From an uncultured Candidatus Actinomarina sp. (lineage in GTDB: Bacteria; Actinomycetota; Acidimicrobiia; Actinomarinales; Actinomarinaceae), in contig CACJUH010000007.1 of assembly GCA_902596545.1 (NCBI GenBank), positions 1 through 63,139 of the forward strand: a DNA stretch of 63,139 nt, read 5' to 3'. The translations under genes were made by a program, and so were the position numbers. The notes beneath the pieces are model-generated. The model saw nothing but the letters and a program-made list of their open reading frames with translations. It did no database searches and was not told the DNA's origin. Shown here piece by piece: positions 25,675-45,797 of the stretch (positions within the stretch are counted from its first letter, which is position 1; the number at the start of each line of letters is the position of its first letter).

Positions 25675-27306
25675 ATGACAAATGTTAAGGGTTTAGGTGC
25701 CTCATTAGGTGTTGCAATAGGTTCAGCATTTGTTTATGAGAACGAAATAGATTTCGGTAAACAAGCAGTTATTTCCCAAAGTGAAGCCAGCAAGCAATTG
25801 ATTGATAAATTTAATTTTCAAATTAATGATTTTCGCTCAAAAGATAGAAATGATGAAGCTGATATCTTAGATGCCTATATATTAATACTTCAAGATCCAG
25901 AAATACTCAATCAACTTAATCAAAATCTAGATTCATCAATATCGGAGGTTTATGAAGTTTTTACATCTACAGCAAAAATATTTGAATCTATGGAGGATGA
26001 ATATTTCAAGCAACGAGCTGAAGACATAGTTTCTGTTGGAAAACATCTAGTTTTCAATATGCAAAATATCGAAAAGGAAATCTCATTAAGCGACAATACG
26101 ATTTTAATTGCTAAAGACTTAACACCAGCAGACACATCATCAATGGATTTGAGCAAAGTGTGTGGAATTATATTAAAAGAAGGAGGACTTACTTCACATG
26201 CTGTTATCGTCGCAAAAAATTTGGGTATTCCATGCGTGATTGGTATTAAAGAACAATTAGACACCATTACTAATGGTGAGTCGGTGACAATTGATGGTAG
26301 CACAGGAGATATTGTTGTTTCACCTAGCGATAGTCAGATTTCTGCTTTGGAGCAAAAACAAAGCAAGATTGAGGATTTAATTCAAAATTTCACTGAAAAA
26401 AAATATAAAAATCTTGGAGTTGAGTTTAGAGTCAATATCGGATCGTTAGAAGAAATTAATGCATTTAATCATCCATTTTTAAACTCTATAGGCCTATTTA
26501 GGTCAGAATTTATATATCTTGACAACTCAACCAAACCAACACTTGAACAACAAAGCAGTGTTCTCAAAGAGATAACTCAAAAATTTTCTGGAATTATTGT
26601 TTACAGAACTCTTGATATAGGAGGCGATAAACAAGTAGACTATCTTAATTTGCCTATAGAGGAAAACCCATTTCTTGGTGTTAGGGGCATCAGGTTATCT
26701 CTAGGAAATTTAGACTTATTTGATTCTCAAGTGAAGTCAATTTTAACTTCTGAATCATTAGAAAGAATAAAAATTATGTTTCCTATGATTTCTACAATAG
26801 AAGACTTTATAGAAGCCAAAGCATTTGTTACTAAAATAGCGAAAGAACTTAATGTTGAAGCTCCGCCTATGGGAATTATGGTTGAGACACCAGCATCTGC
26901 ATTTATTGCTGACAAGTTTTCAGAAATTGTTGATTTTATATCCATAGGCACAAATGATTTAACGCAGTATATTATGGCTGCTGATCGTGGCAATATTGAT
27001 TTAGGTCATTACCAAGACCCCCTTCATCCGGCTGTGCTTAGAGCTATATCGAATGTAATTGATTGCTCTAATAAAAATAATATTGAAGTTTCAGTTTGTG
27101 GAGAAATGTCTTCAGATCCGGTTGCAGCATTTGCATTATACATACTTGGTTTAAAGACATTTAGCATGGCCCCATCAGCCGCTCCTTTTGTATTCGAAAT
27201 TTTAAATACACACTCAAAAATTAATAAAGTAACTGTTAAAGAGACTATATTGTCACAAAAAAATGCTGACGAAATAAGAACCACTATCAAGGATATTATA
27301 AGTTGA
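25675..27306 (+). CDS. ptsI: PTS enzyme I (phosphoenolpyruvate-protein phosphotransferase)
   Basis: Enzyme I takes phosphate from PEP and gives it to HPr. The N-terminal HPr-binding/phosphohistidine domain carries the active H175 in GGLTSHAVIVAK. The C-terminal PEP-binding barrel contains LFRSEFIYLD, GVRGIRLSL, SIGTNDLTQY and SVCGEMSSDP with the active Cys. At 543 residues it is slightly short compared with about 570 in E. coli, but complete. It is separated from ptsH by ten kilobases; ptsH sits in the mannitol operon. ispD starts on its stop codon. Confidence 0.95.
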   Translation: MTNVKGLGASLGVAIGSAFVYENEIDFGKQAVISQSEASKQLIDKFNFQINDFRSKDRNDEADILDAYILILQDPEILNQLNQNLDSSISEVYEVFTSTAKIFESMEDEYFKQRAEDIVSVGKHLVFNMQNIEKEISLSDNTILIAKDLTPADTSSMDLSKVCGIILKEGGLTSHAVIVAKNLGIPCVIGIKEQLDTITNGESVTIDGSTGDIVVSPSDSQISALEQKQSKIEDLIQNFTEKKYKNLGVEFRVNIGSLEEINAFNHPFLNSIGLFRSEFIYLDNSTKPTLEQQSSVLKEITQKFSGIIVYRTLDIGGDKQVDYLNLPIEENPFLGVRGIRLSLGNLDLFDSQVKSILTSESLERIKIMFPMISTIEDFIEAKAFVTKIAKELNVEAPPMGIMVETPASAFIADKFSEIVDFISIGTNDLTQYIMAADRGNIDLGHYQDPLHPAVLRAISNVIDCSNKNNIEVSVCGEMSSDPVAAFALYILGLKTFSMAPSAAPFVFEILNTHSKINKVTVKETILSQKNADEIRTTIKDIIS

Positions 27307-27983
27307 AAGTACATTCAATTCTCTTAGCAGGAGGTTCTAGCGATAGATTTAACAATGAGGAAAATAAAGTCTACTTTCCAATTGGCGGTAAGCCAGCCTT
27401 GTCTTGGGCTTTAGAAACCCTCGATAATTCTGATAAGGTGGACTCTATTTTATTGGTAGTAAGAGATGAAGATTGGGATAAAACTAATAATGTAATCGAG
27501 CTTGTAAATCCCAATAAACTTTCTGGTGTGACAATTGGTGGTGATACTAGACATGAAAGTGAATATCAAGGACTTGCATATTTGAAAGAACGCCCTGATG
27601 TTAGTGAGGCAGATTTGATATTAATTCATGACGGTGCAAGACCTTTACTCCCAAGTTATTTACTTGATGAACTCATTGATGTTGCTATTAAATATGGTGC
27701 CTCTGCCCCAGGTTTTAACTCAGATAACTTGATGAAAAAGCAGGAATTTAAAAAAGAAGAAATTCAAGAAACAATTGTAGAAATTCAGACTCCACAAATT
27801 TTTCCAGCATCAGAACTTTGGAAGTCTTACGAATTAGCAAAATTAGATAACTGGCAGGCAGTGGACACCACAGAATGTGTATCAAAATACTCTGAGCTTG
27901 AAGCAGTTGTGATTCCGGGAGATCCAAGGAATATGAAGGTAACTTTTATTGAGGATATATTCGAACTTGAACAAATGATTTGA
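27303..27983 (+). CDS. ispD: 2-C-methyl-D-erythritol 4-phosphate cytidylyltransferase
   Basis: IspD couples CTP to methylerythritol phosphate in isoprenoid synthesis. The 226-residue protein has the nucleotide loop LLAGGSSDRFNNEENK with R15 and K22, HDGARPLL, EIQTPQIF, and NMKVTFIEDI with the late catalytic Lys. The usual DTIK segment reads SDNLMKK, a mild deviation. The start is TTG overlapping the ptsI stop (TTGA), so isoprenoid and PTS expression are linked here, which is not a common pairing. Confidence 0.85.
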   Translation: MKVHSILLAGGSSDRFNNEENKVYFPIGGKPALSWALETLDNSDKVDSILLVVRDEDWDKTNNVIELVNPNKLSGVTIGGDTRHESEYQGLAYLKERPDVSEADLILIHDGARPLLPSYLLDELIDVAIKYGASAPGFNSDNLMKKQEFKKEEIQETIVEIQTPQIFPASELWKSYELAKLDNWQAVDTTECVSKYSELEAVVIPGDPRNMKVTFIEDIFELEQMI

Positions 27984-28136: not shown

Positions 28137-28550
28137 GTGTTATCAAATTCACCGTATGCCTTAGGTATAATTTTTGTAACTCTTGCATTAATGTGGGTTT
28201 TACAAATGTCTCTTGCTAAAAGACAAGCGACTGGGTTTTTGAATGCTGTAAACAGCATAAAAGGACCAGGCTTAGAAGTAGCAATAGGAGTCAATCAACC
28301 TAAATGGGGAAGAAAAAAAATCTACCTAGCGATTTCAGTTGATTCAGATTCTACTGTTGTTAATGCTCTTACCCTAGAGGGCGTAACTACTTTTGCAAAA
28401 AGTAAAAACGTTTCATTATTTAATGGTATGAATCTGCAAGAAATTGTTAATTCAAATAACAACGAACCTATCTGGCAAGCTGCAGAAATGGCAGCAAACA
28501 CTTTGATTAAAAAATTTCAAAGCGTGTCAGAAAGTGGTTCAACTAATTAA
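28137..28550 (+). CDS. gutM: GutM-like glucitol operon activator
   Basis: The 137-residue protein has an N-terminal membrane helix (ALGIIFVTLALMWVLQM) followed by a small soluble domain: GLEVAIGVNQPKWGRKKIYLA split by a short loop, then ALTLEGVTTFAKSK. This is the GutM/SrlM pattern. GutM is an auxiliary activator found in glucitol PTS operons, and its mechanism is poorly understood. GTG start with AAGGGG eight bases upstream. No companion repressor (SrlR) or GutR-type regulator gene is present in the window. Confidence 0.8.
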   Translation: MLSNSPYALGIIFVTLALMWVLQMSLAKRQATGFLNAVNSIKGPGLEVAIGVNQPKWGRKKIYLAISVDSDSTVVNALTLEGVTTFAKSKNVSLFNGMNLQEIVNSNNNEPIWQAAEMAANTLIKKFQSVSESGSTN

Positions 28551-28568: not shown

Positions 28569-29111
28569 ATGGATGCTTTGGTAGCAGGCGCAGAAGCCTT
28601 TATCCAAGTATTTAGAACCGCTGCTGATGTATTTGTTGGTTTCACAACAGGAATTATTCCTATTGTGGTTGTGTTCTTGACCGCAGTAAACGCTTTGGTC
28701 AAGTTTATTGGTGAGGAGAGAGTAGAGGGCTTTGCAAAATGGGCTTCTCAAGAAGGGGCAATATATATGCCTGTTCGATATACTCTTCTTCCATTTGTAG
28801 CGGTGTTTATGCTAACAAACCCAGTTTGCTATACATTCGGTACATTTTTACCAGAAAAACACAAACCAGCTTTTTATGATTCAGCAGTAAGCTTCGTTCA
28901 TCCAATTACGGGAATTTTTCCACATGCAAATGGAGGAGAATTATTCGTGTGGTTAGGGATTGCAGCAGGTGTAGAAATAGTTGCACCGGATATGGTTACT
29001 GCTTTGGCAGTTAGATATCTTCTTGCCGGTCTTGTTGTCATTTTAATTAGAGGTATCGTAACAGATATTATCTATAACATTATGACTTCTAGAAGGGCAG
29101 GTGTTGAATAA
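28569..29111 (+). CDS. srlA: PTS glucitol/sorbitol-type IIC2 membrane subunit
   Basis: The 180-residue membrane protein matches glucitol PTS IIC (SrlA/GutA type): AFIQVFRTAADVFVGFTTGI at the N-terminus, LLPFVAVFMLTNPVCYTFGTFLPEKHKPAFYDS (in two pieces), and FVHPITGIFPHANGGELF. It forms half of the polyol channel with the next gene. It has the best ribosome site in the operon, AAGGAGGGGGAG, consistent with high expression. The following gene starts on its stop (TAATG). Confidence 0.92.
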   Translation: MDALVAGAEAFIQVFRTAADVFVGFTTGIIPIVVVFLTAVNALVKFIGEERVEGFAKWASQEGAIYMPVRYTLLPFVAVFMLTNPVCYTFGTFLPEKHKPAFYDSAVSFVHPITGIFPHANGGELFVWLGIAAGVEIVAPDMVTALAVRYLLAGLVVILIRGIVTDIIYNIMTSRRAGVE

Positions 29112-29635
29112 TGCAAGCTTTAATAGAAAAAATTGGTCGTTCAGTTGGTGGCGTGGTTGGAACATTGTTCCAAGCAGGTCGTGATGCTGTTGACCTATGT
29201 TTAAAAACAATAATTCCATTTATGGCATTCGTTACATTCGTCATTGGTTTAATTTTAGAAACTGGTGTTGGTGATGCTATTGCTAATGGTATTAAAGGTT
29301 TTGCAAGCAGTTTAGGCGGTCTTATGATCGTTTGTATCATTTGTGCGATACCTGTTTTGTCACCACTACTTGGACCTGGTGCAGTTATAGCCCAGATCGT
29401 AGGTGTGTTGATAGGTACAGAAATTGGACGTGGAAACATTGATGTTTCAATGGCACTTCCAGCATTGTTTGCAATCAACCCGCAGGTTGGTTGTGACTTC
29501 GTACCTGTTGGCCTGGCTCTTGGTGAGGCAGAACCTGAAACAGTTACGGTTGGAGTTCCAGCAGTTCTAACAAGTAGAATGATTACTGGTCCAATCTCAG
29601 TAGTTGTTGGTTATTTATTTGCATTGGGTTTGTAA
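29111..29635 (+). CDS. srlE: PTS glucitol/sorbitol-type IIBC, membrane C-domain only
   Basis: In E. coli the IIBC protein SrlE joins an N-terminal soluble B domain to a membrane C domain (about 319 residues). Here this gene encodes only the membrane portion (174 residues): GRDAVDLCLKTIIPFMAFV, IPVLSPLLGPGAVIAQI, FAINPQVGCDFVPVGLALGE and a final hydrophobic helix. The B domain is a separate gene 75 bases downstream, after a stem-loop. It is coupled to srlA by TAATG. A split with inverted domain order is visible, not inferred. Confidence 0.9.
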   Translation: MQALIEKIGRSVGGVVGTLFQAGRDAVDLCLKTIIPFMAFVTFVIGLILETGVGDAIANGIKGFASSLGGLMIVCIICAIPVLSPLLGPGAVIAQIVGVLIGTEIGRGNIDVSMALPALFAINPQVGCDFVPVGLALGEAEPETVTVGVPAVLTSRMITGPISVVVGYLFALGL

Positions 29636-29710: not shown

Positions 29711-30088
29711 ATGTCAGATTACAAAAAAGTAAAAGTTGAAGCAGGACCAAGCGGTTGGGGAGGTCCTTTAGAAATACAACCAACTGATGAAAAAAAGTAT
29801 ATTGTTTGTATTACTGGTGGAGGCATTCATCCAGTAGCTCAAAAAATAGCTGATTTAACCGGAGCAGAAGCTTTTGATGGTTTTAAATCATCACCAGAAG
29901 GAAGCTTTAAAGCGATGGCTTGTGCAGTAATAGATTGTGGAGGAACAGCAAGAATTGGTGTATATCCTATGAAGGGCGTACCTACTATTGATATTCACGA
30001 CACCACACCAGCAGGTCCACTCGCACAATTTATTAAAGAAGAGAACTTTGTTTCTGGAGTTTCTGAGGATCAAGTTTCTGAAGCTTAA
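29711..30088 (+). CDS. PTS glucitol/sorbitol-type IIB subunit (separate gene)
   Basis: The 125-residue soluble protein corresponds to the N-terminal B domain of SrlE: AGPSGWGGPLEI, VCITGGGIHPVAQKIADLTG, FDGFKSS, VIDCGGTARIGVYP and the final GPLAQFI...FVSGV. The Cys in VIDCGGT is the likely phosphorylated residue by family analogy. It has its own AAAGGAG ribosome site after the stem-loop, so it can be translated independently of the membrane genes. The IIA gene starts on its stop (TAATG). Confidence 0.9.
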   Translation: MSDYKKVKVEAGPSGWGGPLEIQPTDEKKYIVCITGGGIHPVAQKIADLTGAEAFDGFKSSPEGSFKAMACAVIDCGGTARIGVYPMKGVPTIDIHDTTPAGPLAQFIKEENFVSGVSEDQVSEA

Positions 30089-30447
30089 TGCAAATTTATT
30101 CTTCAGAAATAGTAAGAATAGGTGAACAAGCTAAGTTATTTTTAGATGAAGGTATTGTAGTTTTTTTTGGAGACAATGCTCCTGAAGAATTACAAGATTT
30201 TGCTGTAATACACAAACTACAAGAAATTACTGGCAAGATTAAAGTTGGATCCGAAGTAACTCTTTCAGATGTTCAACTCAAAGTAACTGCAGTCGGAGAT
30301 GTTGCAAATGAAAATTTTAAAAACTTGGGACATCTTGTTCTTAAGCTTGACGCTGCAACAGAAGCGGCTCTACCGGGAGATGTTAGTTGTAGTTACGATA
30401 AAAAGCCTGAAATAGAAGTCGGCGATAAGGTAATAATAAACGAATGA
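30088..30447 (+). CDS. srlB: PTS glucitol/sorbitol-type IIA subunit
   Basis: This 119-residue protein follows the GutA/SrlB IIA family: short strands, DEGIVVFFGDNAPEELQDFAVIH near 20-42, and NLGHLVLKLD near 90-100 with a conserved His. It passes phosphate from HPr to IIB. It is coupled to IIB by TAATG and to the dehydrogenase gene by ATGA, so all soluble parts of the operon are translationally linked. Confidence 0.9.
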   Translation: MQIYSSEIVRIGEQAKLFLDEGIVVFFGDNAPEELQDFAVIHKLQEITGKIKVGSEVTLSDVQLKVTAVGDVANENFKNLGHLVLKLDAATEAALPGDVSCSYDKKPEIEVGDKVIINE

Positions 30448-31697
30448 ATTTTACAGAACTTTTAGTAGCTAGAGAAAAAGAACTAGGAAGACCAGTAAAA
30501 GTAGGTCTTGCTGGTGCAGGTCAAATGGGCTCAGGGCTTGCTGCTCAGATAGGAAAAATACCAGGTATGAGTCTTGTCGCATGTGCAGACATTGATACCT
30601 CTAGAGCAGAAAATGCTTTAAAACTTGCAGGAATTCAAAGTGTAAAGCATAACTCTGATGCTTCAGACTCTATTGAAAAAGGACAAGGCGGAGTTGTAGA
30701 CAAAGCAGCAGCCTTAGCAGAATTACCAATAGACATTGTGTTTGAGGCAACAGGAGTTCCATGGGTAGGTGCAGAAGTTGCAGAAGCATGCATAAATGCA
30801 AAGAAGCACATTTTAATGTTAAACGTCGAAACAGATGTCACAATAGGTATGTATTTAGCAAACAAAGCAAACGCAAATGGTGTCGTATACAGTGTTGCCA
30901 ATGGTGATGAACCAGTCGCTTGTAAGGAGCTTTACGACTTCTCTGTTGACCTTGGATTTGAAATTGTATGTGTAGGCAAAGGCAAAAATAATCCATTAGA
31001 TCAAACCGCAAATCCTGATACTTGTTTGGAAAAAGCCACTAGGAAGAAAATGAATCCAAAAATGTTAGCCAGTTTTGAGGATGGATCTAAAACAATGATT
31101 GAAATGACGGCACTTGCAAATGCTATAAATCTACCACCTGACAAAATTGGTATGAACGGGCCTGTAAGTGAGGTCAATGATTTAAACAAAGTCTTAATTC
31201 CTAAAGAAGATGGAGGAGTGTTAGCAGGCACTGGAAGAGTTGATTACGCATTTGGTCCCGCACCCGGTGTGTTCTCAATTGTAAAGTCTGAAAACCCAAC
31301 TGTAATTGAAGAAATGGAATATCTATCAATGGGTGAAGGCCCATACTATACGCTCTACAGACCTTATCATCTTGCTTCAATTGAAGCTCCTAGAAGCATA
31401 GGAATGGCAATTATCAATAATGAGCCTGGATTACAACCAAAATCATGGATTGCTGAAGTTATAGGTCACGCAAAAAAAGATCTTCAAAAGGGAGACCAGA
31501 TTGATGGGATAGGAGGGTTCAGTTCATATGGCGTAACATACCCAGTTTCAGAAGCAGATAATCTAGTTCCACTGGGCCTATTGGAAGGAGCCGTTGTTGT
31601 AAAAGACGTTAAACAAGGTAATCCTATTTCTTATGATTCAGTTGAGCTACCAGAAAACCTAATAAATAATTTAAGAAAATTACAAGAAGATAGTTAA
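30444..31697 (+). CDS. NAD(P)-dependent dehydrogenase with C-terminal SAF domain (COG4091 type)
   Basis: The 417-residue protein has an N-terminal Rossmann region VGLAGAGQMGSGLAAQI (21-37), VFEATGVPWVGAEVA, and a long C-terminal part ending in a SAF-like domain (DNLVPLGLLEGAVVVKDVK). This is the 'homoserine dehydrogenase-like with SAF' family, COG4091. It overlaps the IIA gene by ATGA, in the place where a sorbitol-6-phosphate dehydrogenase (SrlD) would be expected; no SrlD-type SDR is present. I infer action on the imported polyol phosphate or a product, but the reaction is unknown. Confidence 0.75.
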   Translation: MNFTELLVAREKELGRPVKVGLAGAGQMGSGLAAQIGKIPGMSLVACADIDTSRAENALKLAGIQSVKHNSDASDSIEKGQGGVVDKAAALAELPIDIVFEATGVPWVGAEVAEACINAKKHILMLNVETDVTIGMYLANKANANGVVYSVANGDEPVACKELYDFSVDLGFEIVCVGKGKNNPLDQTANPDTCLEKATRKKMNPKMLASFEDGSKTMIEMTALANAINLPPDKIGMNGPVSEVNDLNKVLIPKEDGGVLAGTGRVDYAFGPAPGVFSIVKSENPTVIEEMEYLSMGEGPYYTLYRPYHLASIEAPRSIGMAIINNEPGLQPKSWIAEVIGHAKKDLQKGDQIDGIGGFSSYGVTYPVSEADNLVPLGLLEGAVVVKDVKQGNPISYDSVELPENLINNLRKLQEDS

Positions 31698-31707
31698 ATA
31701 GTTTTTA

Positions 31708-32667
31708 ATGACACTAACACTTGATAAGCAATTGGAACTTCATCGAATGATGATGTTAATCAGATTGTTTGAAGAAGCTTTAGAAGAAATGTTTTCAAGA
31801 GGGTTACTTCATGGGACAATGCATTTATCTATAGGTCAGGAAGCTTCAGCTGCAGGAGCATGCTTAGCACTCGATAAAGAAGACCTTATTACATCGACTC
31901 ATAGAGGTCATGGACACTGCCTTGGTAAAGGTGCTGACCCATTCAAAATGTTTGCAGAGCTACTAGGGAGAGAAGATGGCTATTGCAGAGGTCGCGGAGG
32001 ATCAATGCATATTGCTGATTTATCAAACGGCAACCTTGGAGCAAATGGAATCGTTGCTGGCAGCTTAACAATATCAGTTGGTGCAGCATTGTCTTTTCAA
32101 ATGCAAAAGAAGGATAATATTGTTTTATGCTTCTTTGGTGATGGTGCAGTAAATGAAGGGTCTTTTCATGAAGCACTAAACCTAGCTTCCCTTTGGGACT
32201 TGCCCGTACTTTTTCTTTGTGAAAATAATCAATATGGAATGTCCATGGCTTCAGACAAAGCGGTGGCAGGAGAATCAATTGCATCAAGAGGAAACTCTTA
32301 TGGCATTGAGAGCATACAAATTGATGGCAATGATGTTGAGGCTGTATTCGAAAGTGTAACAAGTTTTAAAAATGAAATACTTACCACCAATAGGCCAAAG
32401 TTTATAGAAGCAGTAACTTATCGTTATAGAGGACATTCGAAATCTGACAGGAATCTTTATAGAACAAGTGATGAAATCGAATACTGGAAAGAGGAAAAAG
32501 ACCCAATAAAAAGATATATTGGAAAGCTTATAGAGTCAGGGGTTACTGAAGCAAAACTTAAGGAAATTGATGAAGGTGTAAAAGAGCTAATTCGTAATTC
32601 TGTTAAAAAGGCACTTGATTCGCCAATGAGCCCAGTAACAAATTTAGAGGAAGATTCATATGCCTGA
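31708..32667 (+). CDS. TPP-dependent dehydrogenase E1-alpha (pyruvate/acetoin type)
   Basis: The 319-residue protein is the alpha subunit of a heterotetrameric thiamine-diphosphate 2-oxoacid or acetoin dehydrogenase. Visible motifs are THRGHGH (64-70), RGRGGSMHI (95-102), and the TPP/Mg motif GDGAVNEGSFHEALNLA with CENNQYGMSM (144-180). The regulatory phosphoserine loop is RYRGHSKSD. It lies ten bases after the SAF dehydrogenase and overlaps E1-beta by eight bases. The acceptor and substrate cannot be told; acetoin-type AcoA is the closest style. Confidence 0.88.
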   Translation: MTLTLDKQLELHRMMMLIRLFEEALEEMFSRGLLHGTMHLSIGQEASAAGACLALDKEDLITSTHRGHGHCLGKGADPFKMFAELLGREDGYCRGRGGSMHIADLSNGNLGANGIVAGSLTISVGAALSFQMQKKDNIVLCFFGDGAVNEGSFHEALNLASLWDLPVLFLCENNQYGMSMASDKAVAGESIASRGNSYGIESIQIDGNDVEAVFESVTSFKNEILTTNRPKFIEAVTYRYRGHSKSDRNLYRTSDEIEYWKEEKDPIKRYIGKLIESGVTEAKLKEIDEGVKELIRNSVKKALDSPMSPVTNLEEDSYA

Positions 32668-33643
32668 ACTTACTGCTGGACAATCAATAAATAAAGCTCT
32701 CTCTTTAATATTAGAAAAGAATCAAACAGCATTCTTAGCAGGAGAAGACATAGGAATTTATGGTGGTGCATTCGGTGTAACGGAGGGTCTTCTAGAAGAG
32801 TTTGGTAGTGAAAGAATAAAAGACACTCCTATTTCTGAAGATGTAATTGCGGGTTTAGCAGTAGGCGCTTCAATGACTGGAAGTAGACCTATTGTTGAAA
32901 TGCAGTTCAGTGATTTTATTGTTAACGCAATGGATCCAATAGTAAATCAAGCTGCAAAACTTCATTTCATGTATGGAGGAGCTGTTAATGTTCCTATAGT
33001 TGTAAGAGCTGCTAGTGGAGCCGGTACAGGCGCAGCAGCTCAACACAGTCAGTCCCTTGAGTCTTGGTTTTGTCATGTACCAGGCTTAAAAGTAGTCACT
33101 CCTTCAAACGCACAAAATGCTTATGATTTATTATTAAGTTCTTATGTAGATACAAACCCTGTTATTTTTATGGAGCATAAGTTGATTTATAAAGTAAAGG
33201 AAAATGTAACATTAAATCCAATTCCAAAAGATTCTAGTTATCTGGGTAAAGCATCAATTGCACAAGAAGGTACAGATCTTACTGTTGTTTCTTACTCTAA
33301 TATGGTGAATGTTGTTAAAGAAGCTGTTTCGATGGATGAACTACAAAATTATTCAATTGAGATAGTTGACTTACAAACAGTATCACCAATAGATTTTGAA
33401 ACTATTAAAAATTCATTAATTAAAACAAAAAAACTTTTGGTATGTCAAGAAGCGCCTTCAAACAGCTCTGTTGGAACAACTGTAGTTTCAAAAGTAGTTG
33501 AAAGTGATCTATTCAATGTTTTAGAAATTGCTCCAAAGCTTGTTTCAGGATTACACTCCCCAATGCCATCTGCAAAACATTTAGAATCAACCGTTATTCC
33601 CCAAAAAGAAGATATTTTAAATGCTATTCAAGACATGCTATAA
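32660..33643 (+). CDS. TPP-dependent dehydrogenase E1-beta (pyruvate/acetoin type)
   Basis: The 327-residue beta subunit shows FLAGEDIGIYGGAFGVTEGL, DTPISEDVIAGLAVGAS, VEMQFSDFI and the central GAGTGAAAQHSQSLESWF with the catalytic His. The C-terminal transketolase domain is complete (QEAPSNSSVG near 270). It pairs with E1-alpha, with which it overlaps. The stand-alone lipoyl gene begins nine bases after its stop, forming an E1-alpha/E1-beta/lipoyl set without E2 core or E3. Confidence 0.9.
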   Translation: MPELTAGQSINKALSLILEKNQTAFLAGEDIGIYGGAFGVTEGLLEEFGSERIKDTPISEDVIAGLAVGASMTGSRPIVEMQFSDFIVNAMDPIVNQAAKLHFMYGGAVNVPIVVRAASGAGTGAAAQHSQSLESWFCHVPGLKVVTPSNAQNAYDLLLSSYVDTNPVIFMEHKLIYKVKENVTLNPIPKDSSYLGKASIAQEGTDLTVVSYSNMVNVVKEAVSMDELQNYSIEIVDLQTVSPIDFETIKNSLIKTKKLLVCQEAPSNSSVGTTVVSKVVESDLFNVLEIAPKLVSGLHSPMPSAKHLESTVIPQKEDILNAIQDML

Positions 33644-33651
33644 ATATATAT

Positions 33652-33924
33652 ATGGCTAAAGAAAATATTTTATTACCTGCAATGTCTGATCAAATGACTG
33701 ATGCTGAGCTACTTAGTTGGAAGATTTCAGCTGGAGATAAGGTTAATAAAGGCGATATTCTATGTGAGATATCTACAGACAAAGTAGATATGGATCTTGA
33801 CTCACCATTCACGGGAGAAATACTCTCTTTGAAAGTTGAAGAAGGTGATGTGGTCAATGTTGGCGATGCAATAGCTGAAATAGAAACAGAAGAAGACAGT
33901 TTACTTGGCTCTATTTTTGATTAA
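33652..33924 (+). CDS. Stand-alone lipoyl-carrier protein, 90 aa
   Basis: The protein is one biotinyl/lipoyl domain: LPAMSDQMTDAELLSWKI at the start, the lipoylation hairpin EISTDKVDMDL with K44, and GDVVNVGDAIAEIE. It ends soon after, with no peripheral-subunit-binding or acyltransferase domain. Usual E2 proteins are 350 residues or more. It directly follows E1-alpha/beta, so it should accept the acyl or hydroxyalkyl group from this E1. Where the group goes next is unknown; E2/E3 may be supplied elsewhere in the genome. Confidence 0.88.
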   Translation: MAKENILLPAMSDQMTDAELLSWKISAGDKVNKGDILCEISTDKVDMDLDSPFTGEILSLKVEEGDVVNVGDAIAEIETEEDSLLGSIFD

Positions 33925-33927
33925 CAG

Positions 33928-34311
33928 CTAACAAGAAGTATCTTTAGTGATTGTAACTATCTCTTTTTCTTCTTTTTTTGCAAACTCACCTGAAATTAAG
34001 ACACAATCTTTTTCAACTGCAATATTTTGATTTATTAGGATACTGCACTCAATTGTTTTATCTTTATATTCTGATTTATAAAAATTAAGACAGTCATTTA
34101 TTTTTTTCTCAGCATTATTTGTGTTTATTTGATAAAGCAAAACCTTTACTTTATCATCGCCAACTTCAACAGACTCAGGATCAATATAAAAATTTTCTTC
34201 ATAAAGGTTATCTAACGTATCACTAGTTTCAGTAGTTAAAAAACCTGAAGCACTACTTGAGATAATTCCTAAAAAACTAGCACCTATAACGATATATAGT
34301 AAATTTTTCAT
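33928..34311 (-). CDS. Exported hypothetical protein, 127 aa
   Basis: An N-terminal signal-like helix (LLYIVIGASFLGIISSSASGF) precedes a soluble, charged domain with three Cys (in NDCLNFY, IECSIL, KDCVLIS) plus a C-terminal Cys, so two disulfides are possible. There is no recognised family. It is inserted on the minus strand between the two plus-strand PTS operons; its stop lies three bases from the lipoyl gene's stop. Confidence 0.55.
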   Translation of the reverse strand: MKNLLYIVIGASFLGIISSSASGFLTTETSDTLDNLYEENFYIDPESVEVGDDKVKVLLYQINTNNAEKKINDCLNFYKSEYKDKTIECSILINQNIAVEKDCVLISGEFAKKEEKEIVTITKDTSC

Positions 34312-42579: not shown

Positions 42580-42840
42580 ATGCTTCAAATAAAAGTTTCT
42601 ACATGGCAATACGATGCACTTTGCAGACAACACAGTAGCAATCTGTTTTTTCCACCAGCAACATTTGAAAAGAAAGAAGATAGAGAAAAAAGGGAAGCCA
42701 AAGCTAAAGCAGTCTGTAGCGGTTGTCCTGTAAAGATTGAATGTTTGGATGAAGCAAATGAAATTTCAGAACCATTTGGTGTATGGGGTGGCTTAAATGA
42801 AGTTGAGAGAAAACGAGAGAACCTCTACGTATCAAACTAA
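42580..42840 (+). CDS. WhiB-family iron-sulfur transcription regulator
   Basis: The 86-residue protein has the four cluster cysteines C15, C46, C49 and C55 (CSGCPVKIEC) and the GVWGG turn followed by the basic stretch KRE. WhiB-like proteins bind a 4Fe-4S cluster and sigma factor. They are almost restricted to Actinobacteria and their phages, so this is a strong taxonomic marker. The closest paralogue (WhiB1-4) cannot be told. It ends overlapping the convergent selB gene by nine bases. Confidence 0.93.
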   Translation: MLQIKVSTWQYDALCRQHSSNLFFPPATFEKKEDREKREAKAKAVCSGCPVKIECLDEANEISEPFGVWGGLNEVERKRENLYVSN

Positions 42841-44505
42841 TTTTTTTCTTTTTCCTAAACTATTAATTTTTGAAGTGTATAAACATTTATCTAAAAACTC
42901 CAAATAAGGTATTGCATACTTTCTGGATAAATTAGAAGCTTCTTTAAATTCGGATACATCAAAAATATCAGGTAATTTTTGTAGAATTTCAACAAGCTCT
43001 GATTTATGCTCTTTCCCAATAATTATATTTTTATCAACTCTATATAAATACTCGTTCATAAAGAGTTCTTTTATAGATTCTTTATTGAACTTGTTTATAT
43101 CAACACGTTTAACTGATAGATTGGTCGAAATCTCTTTGATAACATTCTGGTAAACCTCTAAATCAACAACTGTTTCTTTATTAACAAATAACTGGTCATT
43201 TATAATGTTTAACCCATCGATTTTATCTATTAATTCATCAATATAATTATCCTCTATAAAAAGTTCATCATGGAAATAATTTTTAACACCAACCGAATTT
43301 ATAGTTTTTATATTTTCCATAATTTTTTGGGTCATAAACTCCAAATAATCTTTTGATATGTATTTGTTGCTTATATTTATATAATCTTTAAAATTTTCTT
43401 TTAGATTTTCTGATAGAAGAGTAAATGCTTTTTCTACGTCAACAGATTCAGTTTTTCGAACTTGTCTAAAAAATGTTTTAACTAAATTATTATTATTTGA
43501 AACAAATGCAATTTTTCCACCTATGAAATCATTAGACACCATATTTTGAATTAATATTTTCTGGTTTTCTAACATTGGCAATTTATTTGGTAGCTCTATA
43601 TATATTAAAATTTTCTCTGAAGCATTTATAATTTCTAATCTTTTGACAATTTGATTTGTTGTCCCAACAAATAATCTATTGCTTCCTTTTTTCTTAAACC
43701 CATTATCATTTCCATTTAAAATTGCAAAAATATATTTACCTGAAGAAACAACTTTATTCGTTAATAAGTCGCCTCGGCTAATATCGTCTTGAGTACCTTT
43801 CTTGAGAGATATAGCAATTCTTGATGTAGACGTAATATTTTTAACTTTATCTTCAGTATTTCGTATTTCTTTTACTTCTAATAATTTATTTGTCCTAGCA
43901 AGAAACATATTTTCTAAATCAAAATCCATAGAAGCAGTACCAGTTATAACTTTACCAATTCCATCTTTAGTAAAGCTACGATCAATCCATAATGAATTTG
44001 GGTTTTCAAATGAGTCAGACTTAAAGAAATCTACTATTTTCTCTTGAAATAGATCGAGATCGCTAGTTTTATAGCTAAATTCCTCAATTGTGTAATTTAT
44101 TACTTTTTCAGATATTAATTTTTTTTCAAGAAATCCTTTATCAACTGGAGAATCTAGTAAATCTGTTTTTGTAAGTACAAAAAAAATATTATTAATCTGG
44201 AGATTTCTAATTGCTTGAAAATGTTCCTCTGATTGTCTAGACCATCCCTGAACAGAATCGATACAAAAAATTATACCATCGACATTTGCAAATCCTGCAA
44301 TCGTGTTTTTAAAGTAGTCAACATGACCAGGGACATCAACAATAGATATTTTTTTGTTTTTAAATTCATAATAGGTGTATCCAAGATTGATAGTTAGTCC
44401 GCGGATTTTTTCTTCTTTTAATCTGTCAGTTTCTTGACCCGTTAAGAAATTTACAAAAGTTGATTTTCCATGATCTACATGACCTGCAGTTGCAAGTACG
44501 GTCAT
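42832..44505 (-). CDS. selB: Selenocysteine-specific elongation factor
   Basis: SelB delivers selenocysteyl-tRNA to UGA codons marked by a SECIS hairpin. The EF-Tu-like GTPase starts AGHVDHGKSTFVNFLTG, with DVPGHVDYFKN and LTKTD as the other G motifs. A long C-terminal part (about 350-557) supplies the winged-helix SECIS-binding region. At 557 residues it is somewhat shorter than E. coli SelB (about 614). It overlaps selA by four bases. No selenoprotein, selC or selD was found in the window. Confidence 0.93.
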   Translation of the reverse strand: MTVLATAGHVDHGKSTFVNFLTGQETDRLKEEKIRGLTINLGYTYYEFKNKKISIVDVPGHVDYFKNTIAGFANVDGIIFCIDSVQGWSRQSEEHFQAIRNLQINNIFFVLTKTDLLDSPVDKGFLEKKLISEKVINYTIEEFSYKTSDLDLFQEKIVDFFKSDSFENPNSLWIDRSFTKDGIGKVITGTASMDFDLENMFLARTNKLLEVKEIRNTEDKVKNITSTSRIAISLKKGTQDDISRGDLLTNKVVSSGKYIFAILNGNDNGFKKKGSNRLFVGTTNQIVKRLEIINASEKILIYIELPNKLPMLENQKILIQNMVSNDFIGGKIAFVSNNNNLVKTFFRQVRKTESVDVEKAFTLLSENLKENFKDYINISNKYISKDYLEFMTQKIMENIKTINSVGVKNYFHDELFIEDNYIDELIDKIDGLNIINDQLFVNKETVVDLEVYQNVIKEISTNLSVKRVDINKFNKESIKELFMNEYLYRVDKNIIIGKEHKSELVEILQKLPDIFDVSEFKEASNLSRKYAIPYLEFLDKCLYTSKINSLGKRKKLV

Positions 44506-45797
44506 GAATTATTTAGTGCTTTTACAATTATGTCATCTTGATTATGAAATACACTTCTTAAATCAAGACAAACTTGATCCTTAATAATCCTTGGAATTAT
44601 GGGGATATCATTTCTAATTAACTGATTGATAGTATTTATTGTCTTTTCATTATTTATAAGCAAGATAGGAGATTCTAAAGTTACATCTGGTAGTGTTCCT
44701 CCGCCAATTACACTTTCACCTTTCTCTATGCTTGTAGAAAAAGAAATAGATTTAGCAATATTTTTGCATCTTTTTTCCAAGGAGGAATAAGGTTGTGTAA
44801 TGAGATGCCAGAAAGGTATCTCCTTTTCTTGTTTATTTATATATTTAAGTACAGTCTCTTGCAGTTCAAATAAGGTAATAGGTGAGCAACGATAAGTTCT
44901 AAACAAACTGTAATTTTTTATTTCATTAACTAAATTGTCATCTCCTGCAATAATTCCAGATTGAACTGACCCAAACAATTTGTCTCCAGAAAACATAACT
45001 AAATTTGCGCCATCAGAAAGTGAATCTTGCACAAATGGTTCATCTTTGAAGATACTTACATTATTAATTTCTAAAAACTTCTTATCAATTACTAAACCAC
45101 TCCCTAAGTCATGAAAAATAAATACGTCAAATTTATTTTTTAATTCAGCAAGTTCTTCAATTGAAACATCTTCTGTAAAACCATTGATTGAGAAATTTGA
45201 CCTGTGAACTTTTAATATTAAAGAGTTTGGATACTTCTCCAATGCTTTACTGTAATCACTTAATTTAGTCTTGTTTGTTGTACCTATCTCTACAAGGTTC
45301 AAATCTGTCTCATTGATTATTTCAGGAAGCCTATAGGAGCCTCCAATTTCTATAATTTCACCTCTAGAAATAATTACATTTTGAATATTGTGTGATTTAG
45401 AAATGGCTTTTAATGAAAGAAAAAGAGAGGAAGCATTATTGTTTACAAAAGCAATATCTTTAGATCCTATTAGGTTATTCATAAGTACAGATAGGTATTC
45501 ATTTCTTTTTCCTCTGGATAAAGTTTTTAAATCATATTCAATATTCGTGTATCTACCAGGAAAACTTATGTTATTTGGAGAACGACCTAAGTTTGTATGC
45601 AGTACAGTACCAGTTGCATTTACAACTTCTCTTTGAGTTTTTGAACTTAAATCATTTATAAGTTCAGAGAATATATTTTTAGCAATATCTGAGTCTTTTT
45701 CTTCGGCAAGTATGTTTTTTGCAATCGTAGATTTTATATCTCTTGGTAAATTGGAATTTACGGATTCAGTTAATTCATTAACAGAAATAGGGTTCAT
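44502..45797 (-). CDS. selA: L-seryl-tRNA(Sec) selenium transferase
   Basis: SelA converts seryl-tRNA(Sec) to selenocysteyl-tRNA using selenophosphate. The 431-residue PLP enzyme shows REVVNATGTVLHTNLGRSP near 56-74, EIGGSYRLPEI, HDLGSGL, and the PLP lysine K273 in MFSGDKLFGSVQSG. It overlaps selB downstream and the mrp-like gene upstream by four bases each, making a three-gene coupled unit. Confidence 0.94.
   Translation of the reverse strand: MNPISVNELTESVNSNLPRDIKSTIAKNILAEEKDSDIAKNIFSELINDLSSKTQREVVNATGTVLHTNLGRSPNNISFPGRYTNIEYDLKTLSRGKRNEYLSVLMNNLIGSKDIAFVNNNASSLFLSLKAISKSHNIQNVIISRGEIIEIGGSYRLPEIINETDLNLVEIGTTNKTKLSDYSKALEKYPNSLILKVHRSNFSINGFTEDVSIEELAELKNKFDVFIFHDLGSGLVIDKKFLEINNVSIFKDEPFVQDSLSDGANLVMFSGDKLFGSVQSGIIAGDDNLVNEIKNYSLFRTYRCSPITLFELQETVLKYINKQEKEIPFWHLITQPYSSLEKRCKNIAKSISFSTSIEKGESVIGGGTLPDVTLESPILLINNEKTINTINQLIRNDIPIIPRIIKDQVCLDLRSVFHNQDDIIVKALNNS

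Follow-up and report, generated by a model that had tools for sequence, protein, structure and literature searches.

A probable truncated E2 as likely lipoyl carrier for the neighboring E1 in a PTS/DXR-II gene cluster of Candidatus Actinomarina, and a proposed methylerythritol pathway

In a stretch of 63,139 nucleotides from an uncultured Candidatus Actinomarina (in the following simply called the window), a lone lipoyl protein of 90 residues is encoded behind an E1-alpha/beta pair. This protein is very probably a truncated E2, and it is likely to be the lipoyl carrier for the adjacent E1. Its gene ends a cluster that runs in the order PTS enzyme I, IspD-like, GutM, four glucitol-type PTS genes, DXR-II, E1a, E1b and lipoyl protein. 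This PTS/DXR-II/IspD context, absent from an earlier note on this DNA, is the more informative part of the finding. Other lone lipoyl proteins encoded behind E1 pairs are already known; what is new is that this one very probably arose by truncation inside a conserved PTS/DXR-II/E1 cluster, together with the pathway implied by this cluster. The pathway would use a methylerythritol, and we consider the chances about even that the whole is the best explanation in substance, without every step holding at once. The members of the cluster are:

25675-27306, forward strand: PTS enzyme I
27303-27983, forward strand: IspD-like MEP cytidylyltransferase (TIGR00453, 1.4e-39, 135.9 bits, below the curated cut-off of 181.3)
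28137-28550, forward strand: GutM
28569-29111, forward strand: glucitol-type PTS EIIC
29111-29635, forward strand: glucitol-type PTS, C-terminal part of EIIBC
29711-30088, forward strand: glucitol-type PTS EIIB (N-terminal part of EIIBC)
30088-30447, forward strand: glucitol-type PTS EIIA
30444-31697, forward strand: DXR-II/DRL-type oxidoreductase (PF21135), a relative of the Brucella enzyme 3upy
31708-32667, forward strand: E1-alpha, ThDP-binding (E1_dh, 1e-80)
32660-33643, forward strand: E1-beta (Transket_pyr, 9.5e-37; Transketolase_C, 2.7e-25)
33652-33924, forward strand: lone lipoyl protein, 90 aa, with Lys44 and the conserved C-terminal tail EDSLLGSIFD, a probable truncated E2

The lipoyl gene is a complete open reading frame with an ATG start and a TAA stop, and it starts 8 bp downstream of the E1-beta stop at 33643. 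Pfam family Biotin_lipoyl (PF00364) matches the protein at 2.6e-20, and the lipoyl lysine, Lys44, lies within STDKVDMD. Thus, the lipoyl domain of an E2 with its lysine is present. In the same Pfam search the E3_binding domain (PF02817) was absent, and for the acyltransferase core with its DHRxxDG motif no PF00198 (2-oxoacid_dh) match was obtained in the protein or downstream of it. This agrees with the earlier note, which had described a lipoyl hairpin at K44 without a binding or acyltransferase domain, encoded behind E1-alpha/beta; the domain matches show that both of these E1 genes are real. An AlphaFold2 model computed on the alignment of orthologs has the lipoyl fold with a mean pLDDT of 88, the last ten residues being weak (pLDDT 51), and its top PDB matches are E2 lipoyl domains. 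The gap behind the gene is filled by a 127-aa open reading frame on the reverse strand (33928-34311) with a signal-peptide-like start and no clear family. A mannitol-type PTS lies downstream of this end of the cluster.

The short form of the protein is a constant feature of its lineage. The order comprises 42 genomes of one genus, and in 13 other Candidatus Actinomarina genomes E1a, E1b and the lipoyl gene have the same arrangement, the lipoyl proteins showing 68-94% identity to the one in the window. In 12 of these relatives the stop codon follows directly after SLLGS(I/L)FD, as in the window; the gene of the 13th was not read to its stop and ends alike in the alignment. Two objections raised beforehand, that a base error or frameshift after 33924 hides a full E2 or that close relatives have an adjacent E2, did not hold. 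Using the E2 cores of three related clusters as queries, nothing credible was detected in the window or at the loci of 14 relatives, the single stray match (E 0.72) being located elsewhere, and the same queries recovered the genome's own E2 on another contig. With this search empty and the stop conserved in relatives, a frameshift or hidden E2 was rejected. Conserved E1-lipoyl pairs, proposed earlier as a check, are found in the 13 other genomes at the same place and without an E2 core; a full E2 stands there in distant relatives. That the protein is a decaying relic without function is scarcely credible. Two of the three E2 domains are indeed gone, but the length is constant in all relatives read to the stop, and pairwise dN/dS values are 0.01-0.2 for pairs with unsaturated synonymous change. 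The gene is under purifying selection.

The origin of the protein can be read from the distant relatives. A GTDB scan with the DXR-II protein gave 80 loci. Of those outside Actinomarina, 24 from Actinomycetota, Chloroflexota and Bacillota encode after E1b an E2 of 339-488 aa with its lipoyl domain first; of two further E2, one runs off the end of its contig and the other lies in an ambiguous frame. The residues after the lipoyl domain are TEAEDLLGDLFD in the Kocuria E2 and SDADDLLDGLLD in the Tamaricihabitans E2. The tail of the lone protein, TEEDSLLGSIFD, aligns to its last residue with this first E2 linker, and because of this alignment the protein is taken as an E2 cut off just after the first linker motif. 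The ancestor of a single Actinomarina lineage would have lost the binding and acyltransferase domains, keeping the lipoyl domain and a conserved docking-like tail.

A different kind of decay was detected in freshwater actinobacteria. In ten of their clusters (L095, L098, L099, L103, L104, L106, L107, L119, L123 and L129) the E2 is present and retains the lipoyl lysine, with a short core in which the catalytic His is replaced by Leu (DLR or DLN for DHR); the core at L103 scores 22.5 bits. In each of the nine freshwater genomes searched, another acyltransferase scores about 260 bits. One further alignment row seemingly without the catalytic His (L169) was left uncounted, as this E2 is annotated as acetoin type and the row is probably misaligned. 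Taking the Actinomarina truncation and the freshwater His to Leu replacement together, the E2 catalysis of this complex was lost in two kinds of small-genome actinobacteria.

Stand-alone lipoyl proteins are also found in other settings. In the case of Natrialba magadii pNMAG02, an 86-aa lipoyl protein lies behind E1-beta together with a 247-aa E2 core, so that a catalytic E2 adjoins it, whereas the Actinomarina cluster is without any. In the case of a Streptomyces NBC_00564 plasmid, a 77-aa lipoyl protein (L167:4529-4762) directly follows another E1 pair with no E2 nearby; this one, compared at the locus only, lies among other genes than those of Actinomarina. Acetoin and pyruvate dehydrogenase complexes share with the window the E1-alpha/beta pair followed by a lipoyl domain, the ThDP-binding E1 and the DKV hairpin. 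Unlike in these complexes, the lipoyl protein of the window has no E3-binding or acyltransferase domain and the genes adjoin DXR-II, IspD and a glucitol-type PTS.

The lone carrier would require an E2 from elsewhere. The window is contig C7 of a genome of 1.10 Mb that is 94.65% complete and whose content was checked by searches for single families. By eye, SelB- and SelA-like genes (selenocysteine machinery) lie at 42832-45797 on the reverse strand of the window, in this very small genome. On contig C3 of the same genome, E3, a fused E1-alpha/beta, E2, a LipB-LipA fusion and transketolase follow each other in a row. This E2 of 425 aa has lipoyl, E3-binding and acyltransferase domains and is the sole E2 found in the genome, where PF00364 matches three proteins: the C3 E2, the lone lipoyl protein and another C3 protein. 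Among the Actinomarina genomes, 36 of 42 have one E2 and the rest none; a second E2 was found in none of the 42, as the two matches in one genome are neighboring pieces of one region. Since full E2 and E3 genes, which the earlier note had proposed to look for, are thus encoded elsewhere in the same genome, its suggestion of a free carrier that hands its group to a distant E2 appears to be the best reading of the sequences. The free carrier would serve the E1-alpha/beta encoded just upstream, and in the C3 complex the sole E2 would unload the arm to CoA and the neighboring E3 would re-oxidise it. The hand-over of acetyl to the C3 E2 itself we put forward tentatively, at slightly less than an even chance.

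The same note had offered the glycine-cleavage H protein as an analogy. This was not supported, because both tail and gene order correspond to the N-terminus of an E2. The H-protein family gave no match among the Pfam and NCBIfam results and no gcv neighbor was seen, so that identity with H protein was rejected for lack of both family match and gene context. Small, free lipoyl proteins exist, like H protein itself or LbpA of Hdr-like sulfur oxidation (PMC6067878), and a different kind of lipoyl protein serving a non-E2 acceptor could be imagined. It is very unlikely here, as by place and tail the counterparts of the lone protein are E2 N-termini, and among the cluster genes neither an Hdr-like nor a glycine-cleavage gene was seen.

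To understand what the E1 pair may act upon, the neighboring genes have to be considered. The DXR-II of the window matches Brucella 3upy at an E-value of 1.3e-96 and contains eight landmark residues described for the family (G121, E174, F178, K191, K193, T229, R320 and Y322; PMC3847144). The family makes MEP from DXP, as shown by complementation (PMC3847144). With Brucella DRL (3upy/3upl) the enzyme shares the PF21135 domain and the conserved K191, K193, T229, R320 and Y322. It differs in that His250 is Asn, and in its place among transport and E1 genes, which suggests the reverse, catabolic direction. This Asn is found in the window and its subclade, the other Actinomarina subclade having His; His250 is present in all but four family members, the family thus allowing exceptions (PMC3847144).

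Based on gene content and known chemistry, we infer the substrate, the direction of DXR-II and the role of DXP in the following pathway. The glucitol-type PTS would import and phosphorylate a branched polyol, most likely 2-C-methyl-D-erythritol, to give MEP. As 2-C-methyl-D-erythritol phosphate is MEP, the transporter, DXR-II and E1/E2/E3 make sense together. DXR-II in reverse would convert MEP to 1-deoxy-xylulose 5-phosphate (DXP), and E1 would cleave DXP acetoin-style to glyceraldehyde 3-phosphate and an acetyl group on the lipoyl arm. An acetoin-dehydrogenase-like E1 could split DXP because DXP, like acetoin, has an acetyl next to a carbinol; whether DXP is the E1 substrate appears evenly poised on these grounds. 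MEP could also pass via IspD directly to isoprenoids, sparing the cell DXS. Against the pathway count the glucitol-type PTS, which taken by itself would point to sorbitol, the Asn in place of His250 in DXR-II, and the scores of E1a and E1b as generic pyruvate dehydrogenase (PDH) E1. A limited literature search on methylerythritol uptake and catabolism, DXP cleavage and methyltetrol degradation found no description of such a pathway.

Related clusters show that the combination is not confined to Actinomarina. A glucitol PTS and E1ab both occur in 26 of the 65 non-Actinomarina DXR-II loci (19 of 33 among those with wide flanks), and an IspD relative occurs in 29 of the 65. Plasmids of rhizobia and related bacteria have E1a, E1b and E2 directly downstream of DXR-II. 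In Rhizobium B230/85 and Nitratireductor these genes are joined by a glucitol-type PTS, in S. meliloti Rm41 and Agrobacterium by an ABC transporter plus sugar kinase and also by E3 and LipA. These rhizobial DXR-II have 72-75% identity to the Brucella enzyme and group with it at 100/100. In Priestia, PTS, E1a, E1b, E2, E3 and DXR-II lie in one region. In Listeria innocua (L159) and Ligilactobacillus salivarius (L160), DXR-II lies beside a glucitol-type PTS without this E1 pair; the latter has fructose-6-phosphate aldolase and transketolase instead, which may cleave the product by a different route. In a Listeria study (PMC11176438) the PTS was listed together with GutM and SAF-domain genes as a sorbitol operon, and uptake of sorbitol and mannitol has been described for Actinomarinales (PMC7771536). 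If our reading is right, this sorbitol label needs a test.

The E1 pair could of course be a second, ordinary dehydrogenase E1 for pyruvate or another 2-oxo acid, with a reduced carrier, that merely happens to adjoin a PTS for sorbitol or some similar polyol. The resemblance of E1a and E1b to PDH E1 fits this, as does the automatic annotation of the relatives as PDH or alpha-ketoacid dehydrogenase. The joint recurrence of the E1 pair, DXR-II and the transporter across four phyla speaks against it, as does the absence of a recognisable sorbitol-6-phosphate dehydrogenase from the cluster. Moreover, E1b linked to DXR-II from outside the genus have 43-50% identity to that of the window, and the unlinked ones sampled at most about 40%, with one exception of 47% on a C. 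difficile plasmid. In a tree, the E1b of the window groups weakly with actinobacterial DXR-II-linked E1b (54/77), apart from two acetoin-linked E1b; the fused Actinomarina E1 also joins the window's E1b there, a grouping based on long branches that was left out of the reading. Altogether, we regard such an ordinary dehydrogenase as unlikely.

The isoprenoid genes of the order gave rise to a further explanation. Two DXS models and one DXR-I model, positive in 10 of 14 controls, found DXS over cut-off in 0 of 42 Actinomarina genomes, the best match of 74 bits being at E1 proteins, and DXR-I likewise in 0 of 42. As the models found none while the controls were positive, a DXS or DXR-I hidden elsewhere was rejected. 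IspF is present in 40 and IspH in 30 of the 42 genomes, not in the window's own, incomplete assembly. With DXS and DXR-I undetected in these genomes, the cluster may also supply MEP. Accordingly, one might suppose that E1-alpha/beta replaces DXS: it would decarboxylate pyruvate and combine the C2 unit with glyceraldehyde 3-phosphate to give DXP, which DXR-II would convert to MEP for IspD, with the E2 core decayed and acetyl-CoA no longer the product. The loss of E2 catalysis in both lineages, seen as His to Leu in the ten freshwater clusters, would fit. So would the nine freshwater actinobacterial MAGs that contain the cluster: in eight of them DXS stays below cut-off, six giving nothing above 82 bits and two giving partial matches near 165 bits, although MAGs are incomplete. 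DXP is made by E. coli aceE mutants (PMC3424233), and among 181 species that have the MEP pathway except for DXS, no mechanism of isoprenoid supply is known for 172 (PMC10663253). However, many Actinomarina genomes have IspD-DXR-II without the glucitol PTS or this E1 pair and are equally without DXS and DXR-I. One freshwater genome (G045) has DXS plus a dead E2, and Kocuria, Tamaricihabitans and Paenibacillus have DXS besides the cluster. A replacement of DXS by this E1 would account neither for the conserved PTS and GutM nor for the lipoyl hairpin being under purifying selection, and is therefore improbable.

The same PTS-less Actinomarina also bear on our preferred pathway, since the PTS cannot explain their MEP supply. 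In four of them (L053, L055, L057 and L058) DXR-II is followed by a gene for a conserved 174-179 aa protein and then, judging by eye, by a thioredoxin-like gene in the opposite orientation. An actinobacterial genome with only DXR-II-IspD (G052) has DXS.

Candidatus Actinomarina are streamlined, exclusively marine plankton (PMC7771536), and DXR-II has been found in bacteria without the MEP pathway, namely Finegoldia and Chloroflexus (PMC3847144). One testable gene cluster links both puzzles, that of DXR-II without the MEP pathway and that of isoprenoids without DXS. In its widest form, an undescribed and widespread pathway would burn 2-C-methyltetrols by reversed DXP/MEP chemistry (PTS or ABC transporter plus kinase, DXR-II, DXP-cleaving E1/E2), and in streamlined marine and freshwater actinobacteria it would take the place of DXS in supplying MEP, the E2 arm being free or catalytically dead and borrowing the E2 of another complex; we propose this extension as a doubtful one. 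The 2-C-methyltetrols are plant metabolites and major airborne products of isoprene oxidation, and for this reason bacteria that consume them would be of ecological importance. A lipoyl arm leaving its own complex to serve another would show how far such complexes come apart.
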